From: Cyclina sinensis
Taxonomy: Eukaryota > Mollusca > Bivalvia > Venerida > Veneridae
NCBI GenBank assembly: GCA_012932295.1
Contig: JAAONU010000006.1
Coordinates: 25,942,882 to 26,006,881, forward strand
Length of the DNA: 64,000 nt
Reading direction: 5' to 3'
Part shown: piece after piece, positions 20,401-61,800 of the stretch
Numbering within the stretch: position 1 is the first letter of the stretch
Layout: the number at the start of each line of letters is the position of its first letter
Notes under the pieces: model-generated
Databases searched by the model: none
The model's input: the letters and a program-made list of their open reading frames with translations, nothing else
Told to the model about the DNA's origin: nothing
Program-made: the position numbers and the translations under genes

Positions 20401-23400
20401 TGACAAATGCTGTTATTTTCATACTGATGCAATATGTATATTAAGTTGATTCAGTGTATCTTTTATCTGCAGTATTAAACGTGAGAAATTTCTAACCTGA
20501 CATTATGCAGACAACTTGAATAAAGTTTTAGACTTATTTCCATATCAAATGAGGAATCCTTCAAGAGACACTTTTATATCAATGTTAGCTTAACATAACG
20601 TTAACCTTAAAACTTTGAGAAGAAATATTATATGTGTCATTTTATTAACTTAATATGTGGACCATTTTCACGCCAGATCGTCATCTGATTATCATGAAAC
20701 AGTCAGTTCTGAGATTTGTATATACCTCTTGATAGTTATTGCATAGGTTTCTTTTGACTTTACGTATGTTGTTGTTGTAATTTTGCTTGAAAGTCATCAA
20801 TTACTTGAAAGTGTTCAATTTACCGACATTAGGCAAGCCTATTAAATCCAAGTTGTACAACAATCCATTACATCTATTGTGATTATAATTAAAGTACAAG
20901 AAGGCCATGATGGCTCTGGATCGCTCACCTGAGTACTTTGGCTGTAGGTTTGCTGTTAAGCAGTATTTCATTTTTTAATTGAAAATATGTAAGTGCCTAC
21001 AAATCAAATATGTAAAATATTAGTCAATAAATAAAGGCTCTATGACAGAAAGTAGAAATATCTATTATAAGCTATGGTGACCATGACCTTGACCCAGTGA
21101 CCTCAAACCCTACCCATGGGTAGTCGTCCATGCAAGGAACCTATATACTGAATATCGAAGATATTGGTCTATAAATGAAGGCTCTATGAGGTACTGTAGA
21201 TAAATCTATTTTTAGCCTCCGTGACCTTTAACCTAATCTAATAATTTCAAAAAGCTTGATAAAGCTTGCTTCATGCCAAATTTTAAAATTCTAGGCCTTG
21301 TGGTTTCAGACAAGAAGATTTTTAAAGATTTTCTTCTATACTGCTATTTAAAACTTGTGACCCCTCGGGTGGGGCCAATAGTGACCCCAGGGACATTTTT
21401 CAAACAAACTAGGTAGAGGTCCACTAGACAATGCTGCATACCAAATATCTAAGCTGTAGGCATTGAGGTTTCCAGTTAGAAGATTTTTAAAGATTGCCTT
21501 TTTTACATATTAAGGGCCCCCGGGGCGGGGCCAATTTTTACCCCGGGGCCAACATATAAACAATACTGGTAAAGGTTCTCAACACAATACTAAACACCAA
21601 ATATCTAAGGTCTAGTCCGATAAGTTTAGAAGAAAAATGATTGTTCATGTTTTTCCTATATAACTATATGGAAACCAAGAGAACCCTGGAGCGTAGCCAA
21701 TTTTGACCCAGGGGACATAATTTGAAAAAACTTGGTAGACATCCACTAGACAATGCTGCGTACCAAATATCTAAGCTGTAGGCATTGAGGTTTCCAGTGA
21801 GAAGATTTTTAAAGATTGCCTTTTTTACATATTAAGGGCCCCCAGGGCGGGCCAATTTTGACCCTGGGGCCAACATATAAACAATACTGGTAAAGGTTCT
21901 CAACACAATACTAAACACCAAATATCTAAGGTCTAGTCTTATTAGTTTCGGAGAAAAATGATTTTTCATGTTTTTCCTATATAACTATATGTAAATCAAG
22001 AGAACCCTGGGGCGTGGCCAATTTTGACCCAGGGGACATAATTTGAACAAACTTGATAAGAGCTCACTAGACAATGCTACATACCAAATATCTAAGCTGT
22101 AGGCATTGTGGTTTCTGATAAGAAGATTTTTAAGGATTTCCTATATAAGCCTATGTAAAATCAATTGACCCCCGGGGTGGGGCCTATTTTGACCCAGTGG
22201 CTATGATTTGAAGAAACTTAGTAGTGGTCCACTGGGCAATGCTGCACACCAAATATCTAAACTCTACGCCTTGCGGTTTCTGACAAAAAGATTTTTTAAA
22301 GTTTTTCCTATATAACTCTATTTAAAACATTTGACCCCTGGGGCGGGGCCATTTTTGACCCAGGAGCCATGATTTGAACAAACTTGGTAGAGGTCCACTG
22401 GACAATGCTGCGCACCAAATATCTAAACTCTAGGCCTTGCAGTTTCTGACAAGAAGATTTTCTAAAGTTTTTCCTATATAACTCTATGTAAAACATGTGA
22501 CCCCCGGAACTGGGCAATTTTTGACCCAGGAGCCATGATTTGATCAATCTTGGTAAAGGTCCACTGGACAATGCTGCACACCAAATATCTAAACTCTAGG
22601 CCTTGTGGTTTCTGACAAAAAGATTTTTTAAATTTTCCCTATATAAATCTATGTAAAATCAACTGACCCCTGGGATGGGGTCAGTTATAACCCCACGGTC
22701 ATAATTTGAACAAACCTGGTAGAGGTCCACTAGATGATGCTTCATACCAAATATCTAAGCTCCAGGCCTTGTTGTTTCGGAGAAGAAGATTTTTAAAGAT
22801 CCAACTTTTAAAATCTATTTTTAGCTCCTGTGGCCTAGAAATGCAATGGACCTAAACCATTTGAACAATTTAAGTAAAGCTTCATGCAAGTAACATTCCT
22901 GCCAAGTTTCAGCAAGATTGGCCCAGCAGTTCAGGAGAAGAAGTTGTTTGAAGAAAAAGTTGACGATGCACGGACGGACGGACGACAGACATCAGGCGAT
23001 CACAAAAGCCCACCCTGAGCACTTTGTGCTCAGGTGAGCTAACAAATATTCGTAAAGGCCCAGTCAGATTGCATGACTGAGTTAACACAGAGCCTTTTCC
23101 TCTGCACCACACGACAACACAGAACGTGTAAACGACCAGATTAATTTGTACAACGCATGACTTTTTCTTTCTTGTGATTTTTATGGGGATGGAAATATTG
23201 GTAACAGCTGTCTGCTTTCCTGCACCGGCTTTTGTATCTTTTGATATTTACAACTACTAATATATCAGATTTGACATAAATGATATGACTGGTGTGTTCA
23301 GGGAGATTTTTGCTATGCAGTTTTGTGAGACACAAACGTCACTTCCTGTTTTCAACCAGTTGCATTTGATGACAGTCTAATTAATGTTTCGTACAAAATA

Positions 23401-31593: not shown

Positions 31594-32075
31594 GGGCGAC
31601 GTCGTGAGCTGACGTTTAGAGCAACGTTCAGTGGCGGCAGGTATGCTGCATGGCGGAATGGCTGAACAAGACGTTGCTCAGCATTTTGGTGTTGCTGCAG
31701 GTACTGTGCCACGTCTCAAGAGTCGTTTCGAACAAACTGAACAAGTGAAAGACCACCCGCGCTCCGGCATGCCTCGTAAAACGACGCCTATGGAAGACAG
31801 ATACGTAGTTGTGACGTCACGCCGGAATCGTTTTATGTCGGCGCCAAAACTTGACGAACACTTACAAAACACATCAGGTGTCAAGATTTGTGCGCAAACA
31901 ATTCGGAATCGACTCCATAACAGAGGTTTGAAAGGCAGACGTCCGTACAAAGGCTTGGTACTGACGCCACAACATGCACGTGCTCGACTGAACTGGGCTA
32001 CTGCCCACCGTGACTGGACACTTAGACAATGGAATAACGTGTTATTCACAGATGTCTTCAGGTTAGCAAAGTTTA
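31594..32075 (+). pseudogene. Truncated Tc1-type transposase (N-terminal half)
   Basis: The reading frame from 31631 gives a helix-turn-helix pattern typical of Tc1-like transposases: GGMAEQDVAQHFGVAAGTV, then a GRPR-like HPRSGMPRKTT hook, then SAPKLDEHLQNTSG and a second DNA-binding region. It continues to WNNVLFTD, which aligns with the first catalytic Asp of the DDE triad, and then loses similarity. The second Asp and the Glu are absent. The conserved upstream start (GRRRELT) lies in another frame, so a small deletion near 31612-31616 shifts the frame. Terminal inverted repeats were not found. This is a dead fragment. Confidence 0.8.
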
Positions 32076-32099
32076 CCTCTAGCACACAAAATCCTTTGT

Positions 32100-32480
32100 T
32101 TGGCTGTAAGATGTTTTAATTTTTATTTGGTAATAAGATGTTTATTTTTTTTTATTTGGTAATGTTTTAACCTTTATTTGTAATAGGATGTTTTAACTTT
32201 TATTTGGTTATAAGATGTCTTAAATCTTATTTGGTTATAACATGTTTTAACTTTTAATTGGCTACAATATGTTTAAACTTTTATTTCGTTATAAGATGTG
32301 TTAACTTTAATACGATTATCAGATATTTAAACTTTTATTTCGCTATAAGATGTTTTAACTTTTATTTGCTATAAGATGTTCAAACTTTTATTTCGTAATA
32401 AGATGTTTAAACATTTATTATTTTAACATTTTTTAGCTATAGGATGTTTCAACTTTTATTTAGTTATAGAATAAATATAG
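32100..32480. repeat. Minisatellite, about 30-bp units
   Basis: About 12 degenerate copies of a unit close to TTATAAGATGTTTTAACTTT followed by TATTTGG. It starts immediately where the transposase similarity ends. Confidence 0.75.
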
Positions 32481-52837: not shown

Positions 52838-55800
52838 CTGAAACGCAAAAGAAAATGATTATTCTTTAAGTCACTGTCCTTTTAATAAATGCTCACATCC
52901 CTGAGTTTTAAAATATTATGCAAAAATAATTAGAGTGAAGTTGGCTAAGAGATCGGCAATCGACGTTCGACATTCAATATACAGCTATGCAATCAACATC
53001 CGGCTATGCATTAGCAAATATGCTAATACACAGCTGTGCAATCTACGTTCAGCTCTGCATTCAACGAATGTAGAGCTGTGCAATCGACATTCAGCTCTAC
53101 ATTCAAAATACAATATTCCAGAATGTAGAGCTATGCATTCGACGTTCAGCTCTGCATTCACCAAATGCAGAGCTGTGCAATCGAAATTCAGCTCTACATT
53201 CGAAATATAATATATCTGAATGTAGAGCTATGCATTCGACATTCAGCTCTGCATTCAATGAATGTACAGCTGTGCAATCGAAATTCAGCTCTGCATTCAA
53301 CGAATGTAGAGCTGTGCAATCGAAATTCAGCTCGACATTCGAAATACAATATCCCGAATGCATAGCTATGCATTCGACATTCAGCTTTGCATTCACCGAA
53401 TGCAGAGCTGTGCAATCGATATTCAGCTCTCAATTCGAAATACAATATTCCTGAATGTAGAGCTATGCATTTTACGTTCAGCTCTGCATTCAACGAATGT
53501 TGAGCTGTGCAATCGATATTCAGCTCTACATTCAAAATAAATTATTCCTGAATGTAGAGCTATGCATTCGGCGTTCAGCACGACATTCGACGAATGTAGA
53601 GCTGTGCATTGGACAATCAGCTTTACATTAGAAATACATTATTCCTGAATGTAGAGCTATGCATTCGACGTTCAGCTCTGCATTCATCGAATGTAGAGCT
53701 GTGCAATTGATATTCAGCTCTACAATCGAAATACAATATTCCGAATGCATAGCTATGCATTCGACATTCAGCTCTGCATTCATCGAATGCAGAGCTGTTC
53801 ATTCGATATTCAGCTCTACATTCGAAATAAATAATTCCTGAATGTAGAGCTATGCATTCGACGTTCAGTTCTCCATTCAATGAATGTACAGCTGTGCAAT
53901 CGAAATTCAGCTCTGCATTCAACGAATGTAGAGCTGTGCAATAGAAATTCAGCTCGACATTCGAAATACAATATCCCGAATGCATAGCTATGCATTCGAC
54001 ATTCAGCTTTGCATTCACCGAATGCAGAGCTGTGCAATCGATATTCAGCTCTCAATTCGAAATACAATATTCCTGAATGTAGAGCTATGCATTTTACGTT
54101 CAGCTCTGCATTCAACGAATCTTGAGCTTTGCAATCGATATTCAGCTCTACATTCAAAATAAATATTAGAGTGAAGTTAGCTATGAGATCTCCAATCGAT
54201 GTTCGACATTCAATGTACAGCTATGCAATCAACATTCGGCTATGCATTAGCAGATATGCTAATACACAGCTGTGCAATCTACGTTCAGCTCTGCAATCAA
54301 CGAATGTAGAGCTGTGCAATCGACATTCAGCTCTACATTCGAAACACAATATTCCTGAATGTAGAGCTATGCATTCGACATTCAGCTCTGTATTCAACGA
54401 ATGTAGAGCTGTGCAATCGATATTCAGCTCTACATTCAAAATAAATTATTCCTGAATGCAGAGCTATGCATTCGACGTTCAGCTCTGCATTCCCCGAATG
54501 AAGAGCTATGCATTCGACGTTCGGCTCTGCATTCAATGAATGTAGAGGTGTGCAATCGACATTCAGCTCTTCATTAGAAATGCAATATTCCTGAATGAAG
54601 AGCATTGCATTCGACGTTCAGCTCTGCATTCAACGAACATAGAGCTGTGCAATCGATATTCAGCTCTTCATTCAAAATAAATTTTTCCTGAATGTAGAGC
54701 TATACATTCGACATTCAGTTCTACATTCGAAATGCAATATTCCTGAATGTAGAGCTACGCATTGGACGTTCAGATCTGCATTCAACGAATGAAGAGCTGT
54801 GCAATCGACATTCAGCTCTACATTCGAAATACAATATTCCTGAATGTAGAGCTATGCATTCGACGTTCAGCTCTGCATTCCCCGAATGTAGAGCTGTGCA
54901 ATCGATATTTAGCTCTACATTCAAAATAAATTATTTCTGAATGTAGAGCTATGCATTCGACGTTCAACTCTGCATTCCCCGAATGTAGAGCTATGCAATA
55001 GAGGTTTATCTCTGCATTCAACGAATGTAGGGCTGTGCAATCGACATTCAGCTCTACATTCAAAATGCAATATTCCTGAATGTAGAGCTGTGCAATCGAC
55101 ATTCAGATCTACATTCGAAATCCCGTATTCCTGAATGTAAAGCTATGCATTCGAAGTTCAGCTCTGCATTCCCCGAATGTAGAGCAATACAATCGACATT
55201 CAGCTCTACATTAGAAATGATATATTCCCGAATGTAGAGCTATGCATTCGACATTCAGCTCTGCATTCCCCGAATGTAGAGCTATGCAATCGACGTTCAG
55301 CTCTTCATTCAACGAATGTAGAGCTGTGCAATCGACATTCAGCTCTACATTCGAAATACAATATTCCTAAATGTAGAGCTATGCATTCGACTTTTAGCTC
55401 TGCATTCAACGAATGTACAGCTGTGCAATCGACATTCAGCTCTACATTCGAAATGCAATATTCATGAATGTAGAGCTATGCATTCGACGTTCAGCTCTGC
55501 GTTCCCCGAATGTAGAGCTATGCAATCGACGTTTAGCTCTGCATTCCCCGAATGTAGAGCTGTGCAATCGACATTCAACTCTACATTCAAGATACAATAA
55601 TCCTGAATGTACAGCTATGCATTCGACGTTCAGCTCTGCATTCGAAATACAATATTCCTGAATGTACAGCTATGCATTCGACGTTCAGCTCTACATTCAA
55701 CGAATGTACAGCTGTGTAATCGATATTCAGCACTACATTCAAAATAAATCATTCCTGAATGTAGAGCTATGCATTCGGCGTTCAGCACGACATTCGACGA

Positions 55801-58800
55801 ATGTAGAGCTGTGCATTGGACAATCAGCTTTACATTAGAAATACATTATTCCTGAATGTAGAGCTATGCATTCGACGTTCAGCTCTGCATTCATCGAATG
55901 TAGAGCTGTGCAATTGATATTCAGCTCTACATTCGAAATACAATATTCCGAATGCATAGCTATGCATTCGACATTCAGCTCTGCATTCATCGAATGCAGA
56001 GCTGTTCATTCGATATTCAGCTCTACATTCGAAATAAATAATTCCTGAATGTAGAGCTATGCATTCGACGTTCAGTTCTCCATTCAATGAATGTACAGCT
56101 GTGCAATCGAAATTCAGCTCTGCATTCAACGAATGTAGAGCTGTGCAATCGAAATTCAGCTCGACATTCGAAATACAATATCCCGAATGCATAGCTATGC
56201 ATTCGACATTCAGCTTTGCATTCACCGAATGCAGAGCTGTGCAATCGATATTCAGCTCTCAATTCGAAATACAATATTCCTGAATGTAGAGCTATGCATT
56301 TTACGTTCAGCTCTGCATTCAACGAATCTTGAGCTTTGCAATCGATATTCAGCTCTACATTCAAAATAAATATTAGATTGAAGTTAGCTATGAGATCTCC
56401 AATCGATGTTCGACATTCAATGTACAGCTATGCAATCAACATTCGGCTATGCATTAGCAGATATGCTAATACACAGCTGTGCAATCTACGTTCAGCTCTG
56501 CAATCAACGAATGTAGAGCTGTGCAATCGACATTCAGCTCTACATTCGAAACACAATATTCCTGAATGTAGAGCTATGCATTCGACATTCAGCTCTGTAT
56601 TCAACGAATGTAGAGCTGTGCAATCGATATTCAGCTCTACATTCAAAATAAATTATTCCTGAATGCAGAGCTATGCATTCGACGTTCAGCTCTGCATTCC
56701 CCGAATGAAGAGCTATGCATTCGACGTTCGGCTCTGCATTCAATGAATGTAGAGGTGTGCAATCGACATTCAGCTCTTCATTAGAAATGCAATATTCCTG
56801 AATGAAGAGCTATGCATTCGACGTTCAGCTCTGCATTCAACGAACATAGAGCTGTGCAATCGATATTCAGCTCTTCATTCAAAATAAATTTTTCCTGAAT
56901 GTAGAGCTATACATTCGACATTCAGTTCTACATTCGAAATGCAATATTCCTGAATGTAGAGCTACGCATTGGACGTTCAGATCTGCATTCAACGAATGAA
57001 GAGCTGTGCAATCGACATTCAGCTCTACATTCGAAATACAATATTCCTGAATGTAGAGCTATGCATTCGACGTTCAGCTCTGCATTCCCCGAATGTAGAG
57101 CTGTGCAATCGATATTTAGCTCTACATTCAAAATAAATTATTTCTGAATGTAGAGCTATGCATTCGACGTTCAACTCTGCATTCCCCGAATGTAGAGCTA
57201 TGCAATAGAGGTTTATCTCTGCATTCAACGAATGTAGGGCTGTGCAATCGACATTCAGCTCTACATTCAAAATGCAATATTCCTGAATGTAGAGCTGTGC
57301 AATCGACATTCAGATCTACATTCGAAATCCCGTATTCCTGAATGTAAAGCTATGCATTCGAAGATCAGCTCTGCATTCCCCGAATGTAGAGCAATACAAT
57401 CGACATTCAGCTCTACATTAGAAATGATATATTCCCGAATGTAGAGCTATGCATTCGACATTCAGCTCTGCATTCCCCGAATGTAGAGCTATGCAATCGA
57501 CGTTCAGCTCTTCATTCAACGAATGTAGAGCTGTGCAATCGACATTCAGCTCTACATTCGAAATACAATATTCCTAAATGTAGAGCTATGCATTCGACTT
57601 TTAGCTCTGCATTCAACGAATGTACAGCTGTGCAATCGACATTCAGCTCTACATTCGAAATGCAATATTCATGAATGTAGAGCTATGCATTCGACGTTCA
57701 GCTCTGCGTTCCCCGAATGTAGAGCTATGCAATCGACGTTTAGCTCTGCATTCCCCGAATGTAGAGCTGTGCAATCGACATTCAACTTTACATTCAAGAT
57801 ACAATAATCCTGAATGTACAGCTATGCATTCGACGTTCAGCTCTGCATTCGAAATACAATATTCCTGAATGTACAGCTATGCATTCGACGTTCAGCTCTA
57901 CATTCAACGAATGTACAGCTGTGTAATCGATATTCAGCACTACATTCAAAATAAATCATTCCTGAATGTAGAGCTATGCAATCGACGTTCAGCTCTGCAT
58001 TCAACGAATGTAGAGCTGTGCAATCGGCATTCAACTTTACATTCAAGATACAATGTACATGTTCCTGAACGTAGAGCTATGCATTCGACGTTCAACGAAT
58101 GTAGACCTGTGCAATTGATATAAGGTCAACATTTAAATACAATTTAGAATTAGCAGTAGCAGTAAAAGCAGTAGCACTAGGGAAGTCAGAAAAGTCTGGA
58201 AAGTCTAAATCAAATTAAGACATATTTTAACATCTTGAGACGCAACCGAGTCTATTGCATAGGTCTGCCACTGTTTTTGACACTGCCGCAGACTTTCAGG
58301 AATTCTAGTGCCAATCGTGAAATTGTCATGTAAAATGTCTAGAGACCACCCGGTTCGATTTAAAAGGTCTGCGACTGTTTTTAACACTCTCGCAGAGTTT
58401 CAGGAATGTTGCTGCCAATCAAGAAAATGGCATTTTTTATGTCTAGGGACTCTCCAGGGTCGATTATATTGGTCTGCGACTGTTTCTGACACACTCGCAG
58501 ACTTTCAGGAATTTTGGTGCCATTAAAAAGAAGCCAATGTCTAGAGTCTCTCCAGAGTCGATTGAACCGGTCTGCGACTGTTTCTGAAACGCTCGCAGAC
58601 TTTCAGGAATTTTGGTGCCAATCAAGAAAATATTATTTTTAATGTCTAGAGACTCTCCAGGGTCGATTAAATCGGTCTGCGACTGTTTCTGACATTCTCG
58701 CAGACTTTAAGGAATTTTGGTGCCAATAAAAAATGCTAATTTGACGTCTAGTGACTCTCCAGGGTGGATTTAAACGGTCTGCGACTATTTCTGACACTCT

Positions 58801-61800
58801 CGCAGACTTTCAGGAATTTTGGTGCCAATCTAAAAATGCCATTTTTTATGTCCAGGGACTCACCAGGGTGGATTTGACGGTCTGCGACTGTCTCTGACAC
58901 CCTCGCAGACTTTCAGGAATTTTAATGCCAATCAAACAAATGAAATTTTTTTATGTCTAGTGACCCTCCAGGGTCGATTTAACCGGTCTGTGACTGTTTC
59001 TGATACTCTCGCAGACTTTCAGGAATTTTGGTGCCAATCAAGAAAATATTATTTTTGATGTCTAGTGACTCTCCAGGGTCGATTAAATCGGTCTGCGACT
59101 GTTTCTGACACACTCGCAGACTTTCAGGAATTTTGGTGGCAATAAAAAAATGCTAATTTGACGTCTAGTGACTCTCCAGGGTGGTTTTAAACGGTCTGCG
59201 ACTGTTTCTGACACTCTCGTAGACTTTCAGGTATATTGGTGCCAATCTAAAAATGCCATTTTTTTGTCCAGGGACTCACCAGGGTGGATTTGACCGGTCC
59301 GCGACTGTTTCTGACACCCTCGCAGACTTTCAGGAATTTTAATGCCAATCAAACAAATGCAAATTTTTATGTCTAGTGACTCTCCAGGGTCGATTTGACC
59401 GGTCCGCGGCTGTTTCTGACACCCTCGCAGACTTTCAGGAATTTTGGTGCCAATCAAGAAAATGACATTTTTGATGTCTAGTGACTCTCCAGGGTCGATT
59501 AAATTGGTCTGCGACTGTTTCTGACACACTCGCAGACTTTCAGGAATTTTGGCCAATGAAGAAAATGACATTTTTGATGTCTAGTGACTCTCCAGGGTCG
59601 ATTAAATTGGTCTGTGACTGTTTCTGACACACTCGCAGACTTTTTTAGGAATTTTGTTGCCAATAAAAAAACGCCATTTTTTTATGTCTAGGGTCTCTCC
59701 AGAGTCGATATAACCGGTCTTCGACTGTTTCAGACACTCTTGCAGACTTTCAGAGTTTCCTACTGTTCTTACTGCTACTGCCAATTTCCCGTTTTTCCTA
59801 TTGCTACTGCTGGTACTACTACTGCCAACTTCATGTTTGAGTTATTTTCTATTGCGGCTACTGCTAACATCGATTGCACAGCTATTTATTCGGTGAATGC
59901 AGAGCTGAACGTCGAATGCATAGCTCTACATTCAAGAATATTGTATTTTGAATGAATAGCTGAATGTCGATTGCACAGCTCTGCAATCGGTGAATGCAGA
60001 GCTGAATGTCGAATGCATAGCACTACATTCAGGAATAGAGTATTTCGAATGTAGACCTGGATGACGATTACACAGCTCTGCATTTGGTGAATGCAGAGCT
60101 AAATGTCGAATGCATACCTATGCATTCGGAATATTGTATTTCGAATGTCGAGCTGAATTTCGATTGCACAGCTGTACATTCGTTTAATGCAGAGCTGAAC
60201 GTCGAATGCATAGCTGTACATTCAGAAATATTGTACTTCGAATGTAGAGCTGAACGTCGATTGCACAGCTCTACATTCGTTGAATGCAGAGCTGAACGTC
60301 GAATGCATAGCTCTACATTCGGGGAATGCAGAGCTGAACGTCGAATGCAAAGCTCTACATTCAGAAATAATTTATTTTGAATGTAGAGCTGAATATGGAT
60401 TGCACAGCTCTACATTCGTTGAATGCAGAGCTGAACGTCAAATGCATAGCTCTACATTCAGGAATATTGTATTTCGTATGTAGAGCTGAATGTCGATTGC
60501 ACATCTCTACATTCGTTGAATGCAGAGCTGAACGTTGAATGCATAGCTCTACATTCAGAAATATTGTACTTCGAATGTAGAGCTGAACGTCGATTGCACA
60601 GCTCTACATTCGTTGAATGCAGAGCTGAACGTCGAATGCATAGCCTTACATTCAGGAATATTGTATTTCGTATGTAGAGCTGAATGTCGATTGCACTGCT
60701 CTACATTCGTTGAATGCAGAGCTGAACGTTGAATGCATAGCTCTACATTCAGAAATATTGTACTTCGAATGTAGAGCTGAACGTCGATTGCACAGCTCTT
60801 CATTCATTGAATGTAGAGCTGAACGTCGAATGCATAGCTCTACATTCAGAAATAATGTACTTCGTATGTAGAGCTGAATGTCGATTGCACAGCTCTACAT
60901 TCGTTGAATGCAGAGCTGAACGTTGAATGCATAGCTCTACATTCAGAAATATTGTACTTCGAATGTAGAGCTGAACGTCGATTGCACAGCTCTACATTCG
61001 TTGAATGCAGAGCTGAACGTCGAATGCATAGCTCTACATTCAGGAATATTGTATTTCGTATGTAGAGCTGAATGTCGATTGCACAGCTCTACATTCGTTG
61101 AATGCAGAGCTGAACGTTGAATGCATAGCTCTACATTCAGAAATATTGTACTTCGAATGTAGAGCTGAACGTCGATTTCACAGCTCTACATTCGTTGAAT
61201 GCAGAGCTGAACGTCGAATGCATAGCTCTACATTCAGGAATATTGTATTTCGTATGCAGAGCTGAATGTCGATTGCACAGCTCTACATTCGTTGAATGCA
61301 GAGCTGAACGTTGAATGCATAGCTCTACATTCAGAAATATTGTACTTCGAATGTAGAGCTGAACGTCGATTGCACAGCTCTACATTCATTGAATGTAGAG
61401 CTGAACGTCGAATGCATAGCTCTACCTTCAGGAATATTGTATTTCGAATGTAGAGATGAATGTCGATTACACAGCTCTACATTCGTTGAATGCAGAGCTG
61501 AACGTCGATTGCATAGCTTAACATTCGTTGAATGCAGAGCTTAACGTCGAATGCATAGCTCTACATTCATGAATACGGCATTTCGAATGTAGAGCTGAAT
61601 GTCGATTGCACAGCTCTACATTCGTTGAATGCAGAGCTGAACGTAGATTGAACAGCTGTGTATTAGCATATCTGCTAATGCATAGCCGAATGTTGATTGC
61701 ATAGCTATACATTGAATGTCGAACGTCGATTGCAGATCTCATAGCTAACTTCTCTCTAATGCAAAAGTATGCATCCGATTCATAGCAAAATAATGTCATA

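Follow-up and report, generated by a model that had tools for sequence, protein, structure and literature searches.

A satellite-armed foldback element of Cyclina sinensis belongs to a dispersed, probably non-autonomous DNA transposon family

A foldback element of 8,832 bp (52929-61760), whose arms are satellite arrays, was found in the window, the 64,000-nucleotide stretch of Cyclina sinensis DNA that we analysed. We read it as a non-autonomous foldback DNA transposon with an exchangeable interior, served by a transposase in trans and belonging to a dispersed family (family 1) with about 160 recognisable ends, and we put the probability of this reading at roughly 0.88. The transposase that moves the window element is probably of the MULE type.

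Results

The preliminary description, made from sequence alone, had proposed an 8.8-kb element with inverted termini of about 138 bp and a 9-bp target duplication carrying one mismatch. All three proposals held to the base: the aligned termini are identical at 133 of 142 bp, and the two duplication copies, GCAAAAATA and GCAAAAGTA, directly flank the ATTAGAG...CTCTAAT tips (Table 1). A match of at least 8/9 at two random places of the window's flanking sequence has a chance of 3.6e-4. For the window copy alone, a shift of the tips would allow 8- to 11-bp readings with a single mismatch; the length was set at 9 bp because other copies of the family fix it. From about bp 19 inward the terminus has motifs in common with the arm, and a roughly 20-bp motif that fills the arms also makes up the inner part of each end.

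Table 1. Positions of the element's parts and of related features
Feature	Position	Strand	Remarks
Left target site duplication, GCAAAAATA	52920..52928		9 bp; abuts element start
Left terminus, family 1 (ATTAGAGTGAAGTTGGC...)	52929..53070	+	133/142 identical to right terminus
Left arm	52929..58143	+	97-bp satellite: hairpin unit A (42 bp), hairpin unit B (42 bp), AT-rich linker (13 bp); 103 units
Tandem duplication in left arm	53422..58022	+	53422-55815 = 55629-58022, 24 differences in 2,394
Internal left-end copy	54165..54306	+	joined exactly at ATTAG to arm linker
Second internal left-end copy	56372..56513	+	made by tandem duplication with 2,207-bp offset
IL, left shoulder of captured second element	58141..58262	+	GCAGTA arm stub at about 58152-58179
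Loop array, core of second foldback family	58262..59753	+	105-bp repeat, 14.4 copies
IR, right shoulder of captured second element	59754..59866	+	inverted TACTGC arm stubs
Right arm	59870..61760	-	same 97-bp satellite inverted; 38 units; more homogeneous
Right terminus, family 1, inverted	61619..61760	-	133/142 identical to left terminus
Right target site duplication, GCAAAAGTA	61761..61769		9 bp; 8/9 match to left copy
Tandem-repeat copy, related empty site of L024	20993..21218	-	159/226 identical to joined L024 flanks, through junction

As had also been proposed, the arms are made of one 97-bp repeat in opposite orientations, and the consensus of the A and B units is identical in both arms. 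The left arm holds two extra copies of the left end, at 54165 and 56372, of which the former is a second, independent outer junction. The near-identical 2,394-bp duplication in this arm may have arisen in assembly. The 42-bp unit has a conserved stem, in which no convincing covariation was found. One array monomer folded better than 200/200 shuffles (z -4.0), while in the same test with 200 shuffles neither the two terminus strands nor a loop monomer folded better than all shuffles. The arm pattern gave 0 matches in the viral and genome contig collections searched, the terminus and loop patterns gave 0 in the viral contig collection, and a search of Rfam gave 0.

The outer 26 bp of the terminus, allowing at most 3 mismatches, marked 160 ends in the 903 Mb genome, and a reversed-pattern control marked 0. 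A facing terminus pair was present in 20/20 other loci of the first sample, and 34 of the 37 end pairs lying less than 20 kb apart (among 118 known ends) face each other. When the 9-bp duplication was examined in 34 end pairs, it was perfect in 27, had one mismatch in 4 and was absent from 3; no target duplication was found for L028, L048 and L050. It was perfect in 17/21 pairs of one set, and at 7, 8, 10 or 11 bp none of these 21 pairs had fewer than 2 mismatches. The genome search suggested in the preliminary description thus recovered paired copies with 9-bp duplications (at most one mismatch in 31/34), and termini confined to satellite blocks without paired copies, which it had named as the adverse case, were not observed; the facing pairs are dispersed. 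When the flanks of one copy, L024, are joined, they align without a break across the junction to two further copies of the target repeat of L024; Table 1 lists a related empty site. The paired copies, the 9-bp duplications and this one related uninterrupted target support the earlier proposal of a foldback-type DNA transposon whose arms are satellite arrays.

The shortest copy of family 1 measures 145 bp and the longest 15.5 kb. Among the short ones, the duplication is perfect in a copy of 1,185 bp, has one mismatch in one of 666 bp, and is absent from those of 145 and 1,257 bp. A MITE is a short non-coding element with inverted ends, and the window copy far exceeds such a length. The foldback plan of terminus, array, middle, inverted array and terminus was seen in the window copy and in 20 other tabulated copies; L024 is without a loop, and L027 has an unrelated middle. 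Unit counts vary among copies, from 10 to 103 in the arms and from 9 to 22 in the loop. The end clusters on C17 and C19 have private variants in common and look like segmental copying.

The loop had been taken for a second, unrelated tandem repeat. Its 105-bp array was confirmed, and it had no BLAST match at E 0.01 to the arms or flanks of the window copy. We identify the loop as a truncated core from a second foldback family, likewise with satellite arms, and on this identity we rejected the reading as just an unrelated satellite. The second family has arms of a 45-bp repeat, a loop of the 105-bp repeat and the ends ATGTATAGG/ACTAATAGG, with perfect 9-bp duplications in 3/3 copies read end to end. 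The inverted symmetry was said to reach the inner edges, and it does so because the loop keeps arm stubs of the second family: with the two edges searched alone, the GCAGTA symmetry is 29/35 and 24/27 identical (E 1e-7 and 5e-7). IL is 79-81% similar to the equivalent place in four second-family loci. More than 60 bp of this shoulder is present in 18/19 loop-bearing copies, window included, and is absent over that length in L026. The arm-IL shoulder is likewise kept in 18/19 (match start at most 12 bp from the query start), with only the inner part in L026, and the IR shoulder is kept to at least bp 138 of 157 in 15/19. The composite of family 1 and the captured second-family core has spread as a unit. 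The ends of the two families were also compared. The second-family right end and one family-1 end variant agree over 9 consecutive bases in register (32/200,000 shuffles), and GAAGTTGGC is common to one second-family end and one family-1 end variant at equal distance from the tip. The match is weaker elsewhere, with a run of 6 for the other family-1 variant and a run of 5 for the second-family left end.

A separate subfamily of 12-15 kb giants has an unrelated interior, which spans about 7.8 kb in the single copy measured. The middles of three other giants are 99.1-99.5% identical to that of the C1 copy, and the 9-bp duplications of giants were perfect in 5/5. Outside its arrays, the single giant interior that was read completely holds no ORF longer than 115 aa, and the giant ORFs that were scanned all fell short of the Pfam cut-off. 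The 115-aa fragment of the giants has two relatives; it gave no Pfam match above cut-off and no PDB match below E 0.28, and its low-confidence model (mean pLDDT 59.5) gave only insignificant structure matches, led by a ubiquitin-specific protease (best E 0.4). L027 and the C1 giant were rejected as intact autonomous copies, having no long ORF and scanned ORFs below the Pfam cut-off.

A MULE transposase sharing the terminus, which the preliminary description had put forward for a search, was not recovered: PF10551 gave 66 domain matches in the genome, the nearest about 53.5 kb from any of the ends compared, a set of 118 out of the 160. Among the scanned ORFs of L027 and the giants there was no MULE-like transposase with a PHD finger. 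Because no MULE transposase was found near the compared ends, membership of this superfamily is given as probable from the duplication length and build alone. The 9-bp duplication falls within the 8-11 bp range of the Mutator-like (MULE) superfamily given in the cited section of one report (PMC6446971). Most arthropod MULEs have G/C-rich first bases, according to the part of another report cited here (PMC13359780); family-1 ends start with A, which counts against a MULE-type reading.

Discussion

In the mechanism that we propose, a transposase in trans, presumably a MULE-type enzyme working by cut-and-paste, would cut at ATTAGAG.../...CTCTAAT, and insertion would occur at a 9-bp stagger. The arm motif may act as an accessory binding site. 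Each arm would lengthen or shorten independently, possibly via unequal exchange or replication slippage, and with arms that expand and contract the satellite arrays would ride on the element. The interior would be exchangeable: empty in small copies, filled by the second-family core in most sampled copies and by the 7.8-kb interior in giants, and each of the small, composite and giant forms would have moved as a unit.

The chances seem evenly balanced that the satellite arms are an interchangeable vehicle moving any interior, which would then have been replaced at least twice. In one replacement, a foldback nested in a foldback would have spread as one 3-9 kb composite; in the other, the 7.8-kb sequence would have spread recently in the giants. 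Since one second-family end and one family-1 end variant share the same bases at equal tip distance, both families may be served by a single transposase, with the roughly 20-bp arm motif as a possible array of its binding sites.

A palindromic satellite block formed without transposition, through inverted array duplication by recombination or as an assembly artefact, would agree with arm arrays that expand by themselves, as in the left-arm tandem duplication, with the clusters on C17 and C19 that resemble segmental copying, and with the 3/34 tested pairs lacking a duplication. However, 31/34 pairs have the duplication with at most one mismatch, dispersed facing pairs at unrelated places have exact boundaries in common, and L024 has a related empty site. 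We therefore rejected this origin, on the dispersed paired copies with duplications, as almost certainly wrong. Helentrons are of the rolling-circle type and are not known to have a 9-bp duplication or inverted satellite arms, and Helitrons are not known to leave a target duplication or to have long inverted ends. Both the inverted ends and the target duplications are present here, and a Helitron- or Helentron-type element with central tandem repeats was rejected on them as highly improbable, although Helentrons with central tandem repeats, reported for an oyster in the cited excerpts, likewise spread short satellite arrays (PMC7492417, PMC8268682).

For P and hAT elements the usual duplication is 8 bp. 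The strictness of 9 bp in family 1 (17/21 perfect, 0/21 with fewer than 2 mismatches at the four other lengths) argues against a Galileo-like member of the P superfamily, or some other DDE element, whose ends became repetitive by convergence. We consider this improbable, even though the excerpt cited for Galileo indicates that a foldback structure does not by itself identify the superfamily (PMC3573991). It is possible, if rather unlikely, that family 1 is a member of Rehavkus proper in a host group without reports of it, the hosts named in the cited sections being arthropods and annelids (PMC10218199, PMC6446971). Build and duplication length are alike in these sections (PMC10218199, PMC6446971), but the defining MULE-like transposase with a PHD finger was not seen in the scanned ORFs, and no PF10551 domain lies near the 118 ends.

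The closest known kinds to the non-autonomous foldback family described here are Drosophila FB, Tetris, Tm1 and Rehavkus-1_TC. Drosophila FB/NOF and sea urchin TU have long arms of opposite-orientation tandem repeats round a loop, and are likened to family 1 in build. The union of satellite DNA and a DNA transposon in one structure, to which the preliminary description had drawn attention, is not new as such, since Tetris, Rehavkus-1_TC and Drosophila FB also have satellite arms. Rehavkus-1_TC of Tribolium, as far as the cited sections describe it, is about 9.5 kb long, against 8,832 bp for the window copy, and has the 164-bp TCsat23 in its inverted termini, mostly as 5 and 8 monomers; the 9-bp duplication of the group and the satellite in the ends are as in family 1 (PMC10218199, PMC6446971). 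Compared with what those sections give, family 1 differs in arms of a 97-bp repeat with up to 103 half-units, in that no transposase was found, and in an interior replaced by another foldback element or the 7.8-kb sequence.

Tetris of Drosophila virilis, in the portion cited, has an outer flanking domain, an outer domain of 220-bp tandem repeats, an inner domain and a variable middle, with 8-10 bp duplications; its inverted repeats reach 1,735 bp, and three of its copies are complete in structure (PMC4079207). Family 1 resembles it in the domain plan, in the sequence sharing between terminus and repeat and in a satellite seeded by the arms, and differs in its sequence, its arms to 5.2 kb, its 31 pairs with duplications and its nested foldback loop, a kind of loop not described for Tetris in that portion (PMC4079207). 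The Tm1 Mutator/Foldback elements of root-knot nematodes, again from the cited portion, have 14-bp repeats, and one member encodes a Phantom-like MULE transposase; composite inverted ends, variable tandem-repeat numbers, mostly 9-bp duplications, and MITE-like and larger forms with common ends are points of likeness, whereas Tm1 has asymmetric 7-bp tips outside the inverted repeat (PMC3169594).

The question of how satellite arrays get dispersed across genomes is still open, and one carrier named for oysters in the excerpts cited is the Helentron (PMC7492417, PMC8268682). Two foldback families here carry satellite arrays with exact boundaries and target duplications, and family 1 offers an example of jumping genes spreading satellite DNA. 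Small, loop-bearing and giant forms occur together in one genome. With exact boundaries and these co-existing forms, an origin of the arm repeat from the terminal motif, independent arm growth and interior swapping can be tested in one genome. Since repetitive inverted arms are linked to ectopic recombination and inversions in the cited parts of two reports (PMC3169594, PMC4079207), copies that reach 15 kb deserve attention in connection with rearrangements.

Structure of the window element and its satellite arms

The foldback element that the preliminary description had delimited, with inverted termini of about 138 bp, was recovered, and its two ends aligned in inverted orientation over 142 bp with 133 identities. 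The 9-bp target duplication also read as described, with one differing place between GCAAAAATA before and GCAAAAGTA after the element. The chance of such a match between two random places in the flanking sequence was p = 3.6e-4, and from the window copy alone the length is readable as 8-11 bp if the tips are allowed to shift. The terminus consists of the arm motif from about base 19 inward, except at about 79-104, and its outer tip is unique. A second left end lies within the left arm at 54165; as it has the same exact start base after an arm linker, it gives the tip a further, independent junction. A third, at 56372, is a copy from a 2,394-bp tandem duplication (24 differences). The near-identical tandem duplication in this arm (53422-58022) may reflect a recent event or an assembly effect. 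Elsewhere in the window, 31631-32119 holds a fragment of a Tc1-like transposase (PF01498, E 2.8e-22).

Coordinates of the foldback elements and their parts
Feature	Position	Remark
Foldback element of family 1	window 52929-61760	8,832 bp
Left arm	window 52929 to ~58143	97-bp satellite
Right arm	window ~59870 to 61760	same 97-bp satellite, opposite orientation
Second-family copy	C1:69410227-69412535	perfect 9-bp duplication
Second-family copy	C1:62612952-62615170	perfect 9-bp duplication
Second-family copy	C1:53195642-53198418	perfect 9-bp duplication

Both arms are indeed built from one repeat, whose unit joins hairpin units A and B, each of 42 bp, to an AT-rich linker of 13 bp; the consensus of A and of B is identical between the arms. 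The single-strand fold of one right-arm monomer beat 200/200 shuffles (z -4.0), and neither terminus strand nor one loop monomer beat all 200. A comparison of 25 left-arm and 14 right-arm monomers (39 in all, 90-105 bp long) gave a mean difference of 9% within the right arm, 13% within the left and 13% between them. By these values, the right arm probably expanded more recently, and the two arms are not kept identical. The CpG observed/expected ratio, compared between 52929-61760 and its flanks, reached 1.12-1.19 in the arms, against 0.76-0.82 for the loop and the flanking sequence.

Family 1 is dispersed in the genome as facing pairs of ends

We searched 902,855,857 bp in 154 contigs, with the window on contig 15. 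The outer 26 bp of the family-1 end occurred 160 times with up to 3 mismatches (reversed control, 0). A first sample of 20 places (fetched loci, L numbers), reached via 40 scored terminus matches, had a facing terminus pair at 20/20. With the window, 19/21 copies carried the 105-bp loop array, with 9-22 BLAST units each; L024 is without a middle and L027 has a different one. Each arm held 10 to 103 hairpin units, and the copies of this set were 3,017 to 8,982 bp long in total. The 9-bp duplication was perfect in 17 of the 21, had one mismatch in the window, L020 and L026, and was missing from L028. Thirteen additional pairs with both ends known, picked for large or small size, gave 10 perfect duplications, one with one mismatch and two without. 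Overall, 27 of 34 pairs were perfect, 4 near and 3 without, so the paired copies with 9-bp duplications proposed in the preliminary description were found.

Among 118 known ends (100 among the matches listed of 160, plus 18 from the terminus search), 37 neighbouring pairs lay less than 20 kb apart, and 34/37 faced each other. The other three were two same-direction pairs from the window's internal ends and one pair on contig C17. Copies ranged from 145 bp, without duplication, to 15,498 bp, and the smallest with a perfect duplication was 1,185 bp. Divergence per 100 was 5.62 between the ends of one copy and 5.57 when a left end was compared with the right end of another copy; the two ends of a copy therefore seem not to be homogenised. 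Clusters of family ends at C17:33.70-34.57 Mb and C19:18.82-18.91 Mb, 7-790 kb apart with one private variant each, look like the result of repeated copying of a segment that contains the end. In an 8,504-bp copy on C13 (L054:313-1997, minus strand), ORFs with zf-RVT above cut-off and RVT_1 weak, below cut-off, are predicted to be a LINE-like piece.

For empty sites, both flanks were joined minus one duplication and aligned to the fetched loci and the window. The joined flanks of L024 aligned through the junction with L013 (172/238) and with window 20993-21218 (159/226). Both matches are other copies of the tandem repeat hosting L024, and this empty site is related, not allelic. For the other 20 copies, no clear empty site emerged among the fetched loci; the joined flanks of L015 aligned only with the simple repeat in that copy's own flank.

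The loop is the core of a second foldback family

The 105-bp loop repeat had 2,694 genome matches (30-bp pattern, up to 2 mismatches; control 0). The 100 listed of these, all on C1 and C2, were grouped by eye into 49 separate sites, 6 of them less than 20 kb from a known family-1 end. Six sites away from known family-1 ends were fetched (L058-L063). In L058, L060, L061 and L062 a 45-bp minisatellite stood on either side of the array, the two blocks being oppositely oriented; in L059 it was present on one side only, and L063 had too few loop matches for its flanking arms to be judged. Three of these loci, extended to both ends, were 2,219-2,777 bp long and shared the ends ATGTATAGGAAGTGAG... 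and, inverted, ACTAATAGGAAGTTGG... in 3/3. Their duplications were perfect in 3/3, with tips at the same bases in all, set after the flanks were seen. This second family (L058-L062, L064-L069) is apparently abundant.

The loop is a tandem repeat, as described, and not merely an unrelated one. The left shoulder between arm and loop (IL, 58141-58262) is 79-81% similar to the corresponding place in four second-family loci. The symmetry reported at the inner edges is present, and these GCAGTA edges are stubs of the 45-bp arms. The second family's outer tips are absent from the window core (best 10/13 and 9/13). Among the 19 loop-bearing copies of family 1, the arm-IL shoulder was kept in 18, L026 having only its inner part, with lower values (86-87%) in the more diverged L019 and L020. 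For the right shoulder (IR, 59754-59866), conservation reached bp 138 of 157 or beyond in 15/19, and the best match was only partial in L010, L014, L015 and L017. The simplest history has the second element captured once and truncated, after which the composite spread.

The second family's right end shared an in-register GAAGTTGGC with the GTTGG variant of the family-1 end at bases 9-17; a run of at least 9 occurred in 32/200,000 shuffles. The in-register run was 6 with the other family-1 variant and 5 with the second family's left end. As this match is the best among these comparisons, it is a hint, not proof, that the two families may use a shared or sister transposase.

Giant copies have a different interior

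Parts of 1 kb of the L027 interior occurred at 94-97% in five other family-1 copies, and at 89-95% in ten further places, of which 7 have a single known end nearby; a separate part of the query aligned at about 77% with a common dispersed repeat. These five giants (15,498, 15,302, 15,299, 12,324 and 11,829 bp) had perfect duplications in 5/5. The middle 2 kb of three giants was 99.1-99.5% identical to that of the 15,299-bp giant on C1; the giant form therefore spread recently. In the C1 giant, family satellite encloses an interior of about 7.8 kb that had no match to the L013 loop core and, outside arrays, no ORF above 115 aa. None of 10 L027 ORFs and 11 giant ORFs (two being one ORF in two copies) exceeded a Pfam family cut-off. 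L027 appears to be a relative with a rearranged interior. A 115-aa ORF fragment in giant interiors (L055:598-942, also in L051 and L052), with H-Y-C-A and W-Y-D-G-L motifs and two relatives at 50-53%, is perhaps a putative papain-like protease remnant.

Discussion

For family 1, the data show precisely defined ends, target duplications of 9 bp, facing pairs dispersed through the genome, a related empty site, arm lengths that vary independently and composite units. The 9-bp length of the duplication and the foldback build lead us to infer that a transposase of MULE type, acting in trans, may recognise the tip and subterminal motif. Arrays of this motif would make up the arms. Unequal exchange or slippage would have lengthened them, and they may have been retained because they bind the enzyme, as a passage of PMC3573991 proposes for Galileo and one of PMC4079207 adopts for Tetris. 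The interior would be free to change. A MULE transposase sharing the terminus, as the preliminary description had envisaged, did not emerge: none of 66 MULE domains in the genome lay less than 53 kb from the 118 ends compared, among 160. Family-1 ends start with A, and the first bases are G/C in most arthropod MULEs according to a passage of PMC13359780. The missing nearby domain and the initial A count against the MULE assignment.

Satellite DNA and a DNA transposon are united here, as described, but this build is not new. Passages in the literature already present foldbacks with satellite arms: Tetris (PMC4079207), Tm1 (PMC3169594) and Rehavkus-1_TC, with 164-bp satellite arrays within its inverted ends (PMC10218199, with features of the group in PMC6446971). 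Among the papers listed, titles and abstract openings named no mollusc foldback family of such build; several of the bivalve papers mention foldbacks in their text (PMC8268682 among them), and the word does not occur in a bivalve transposon survey (PMC10294476), so such a family may already be in print. The features that seem unusual are the spread of a nested foldback in composite form, the modularity of the interior and the size of arms and element.
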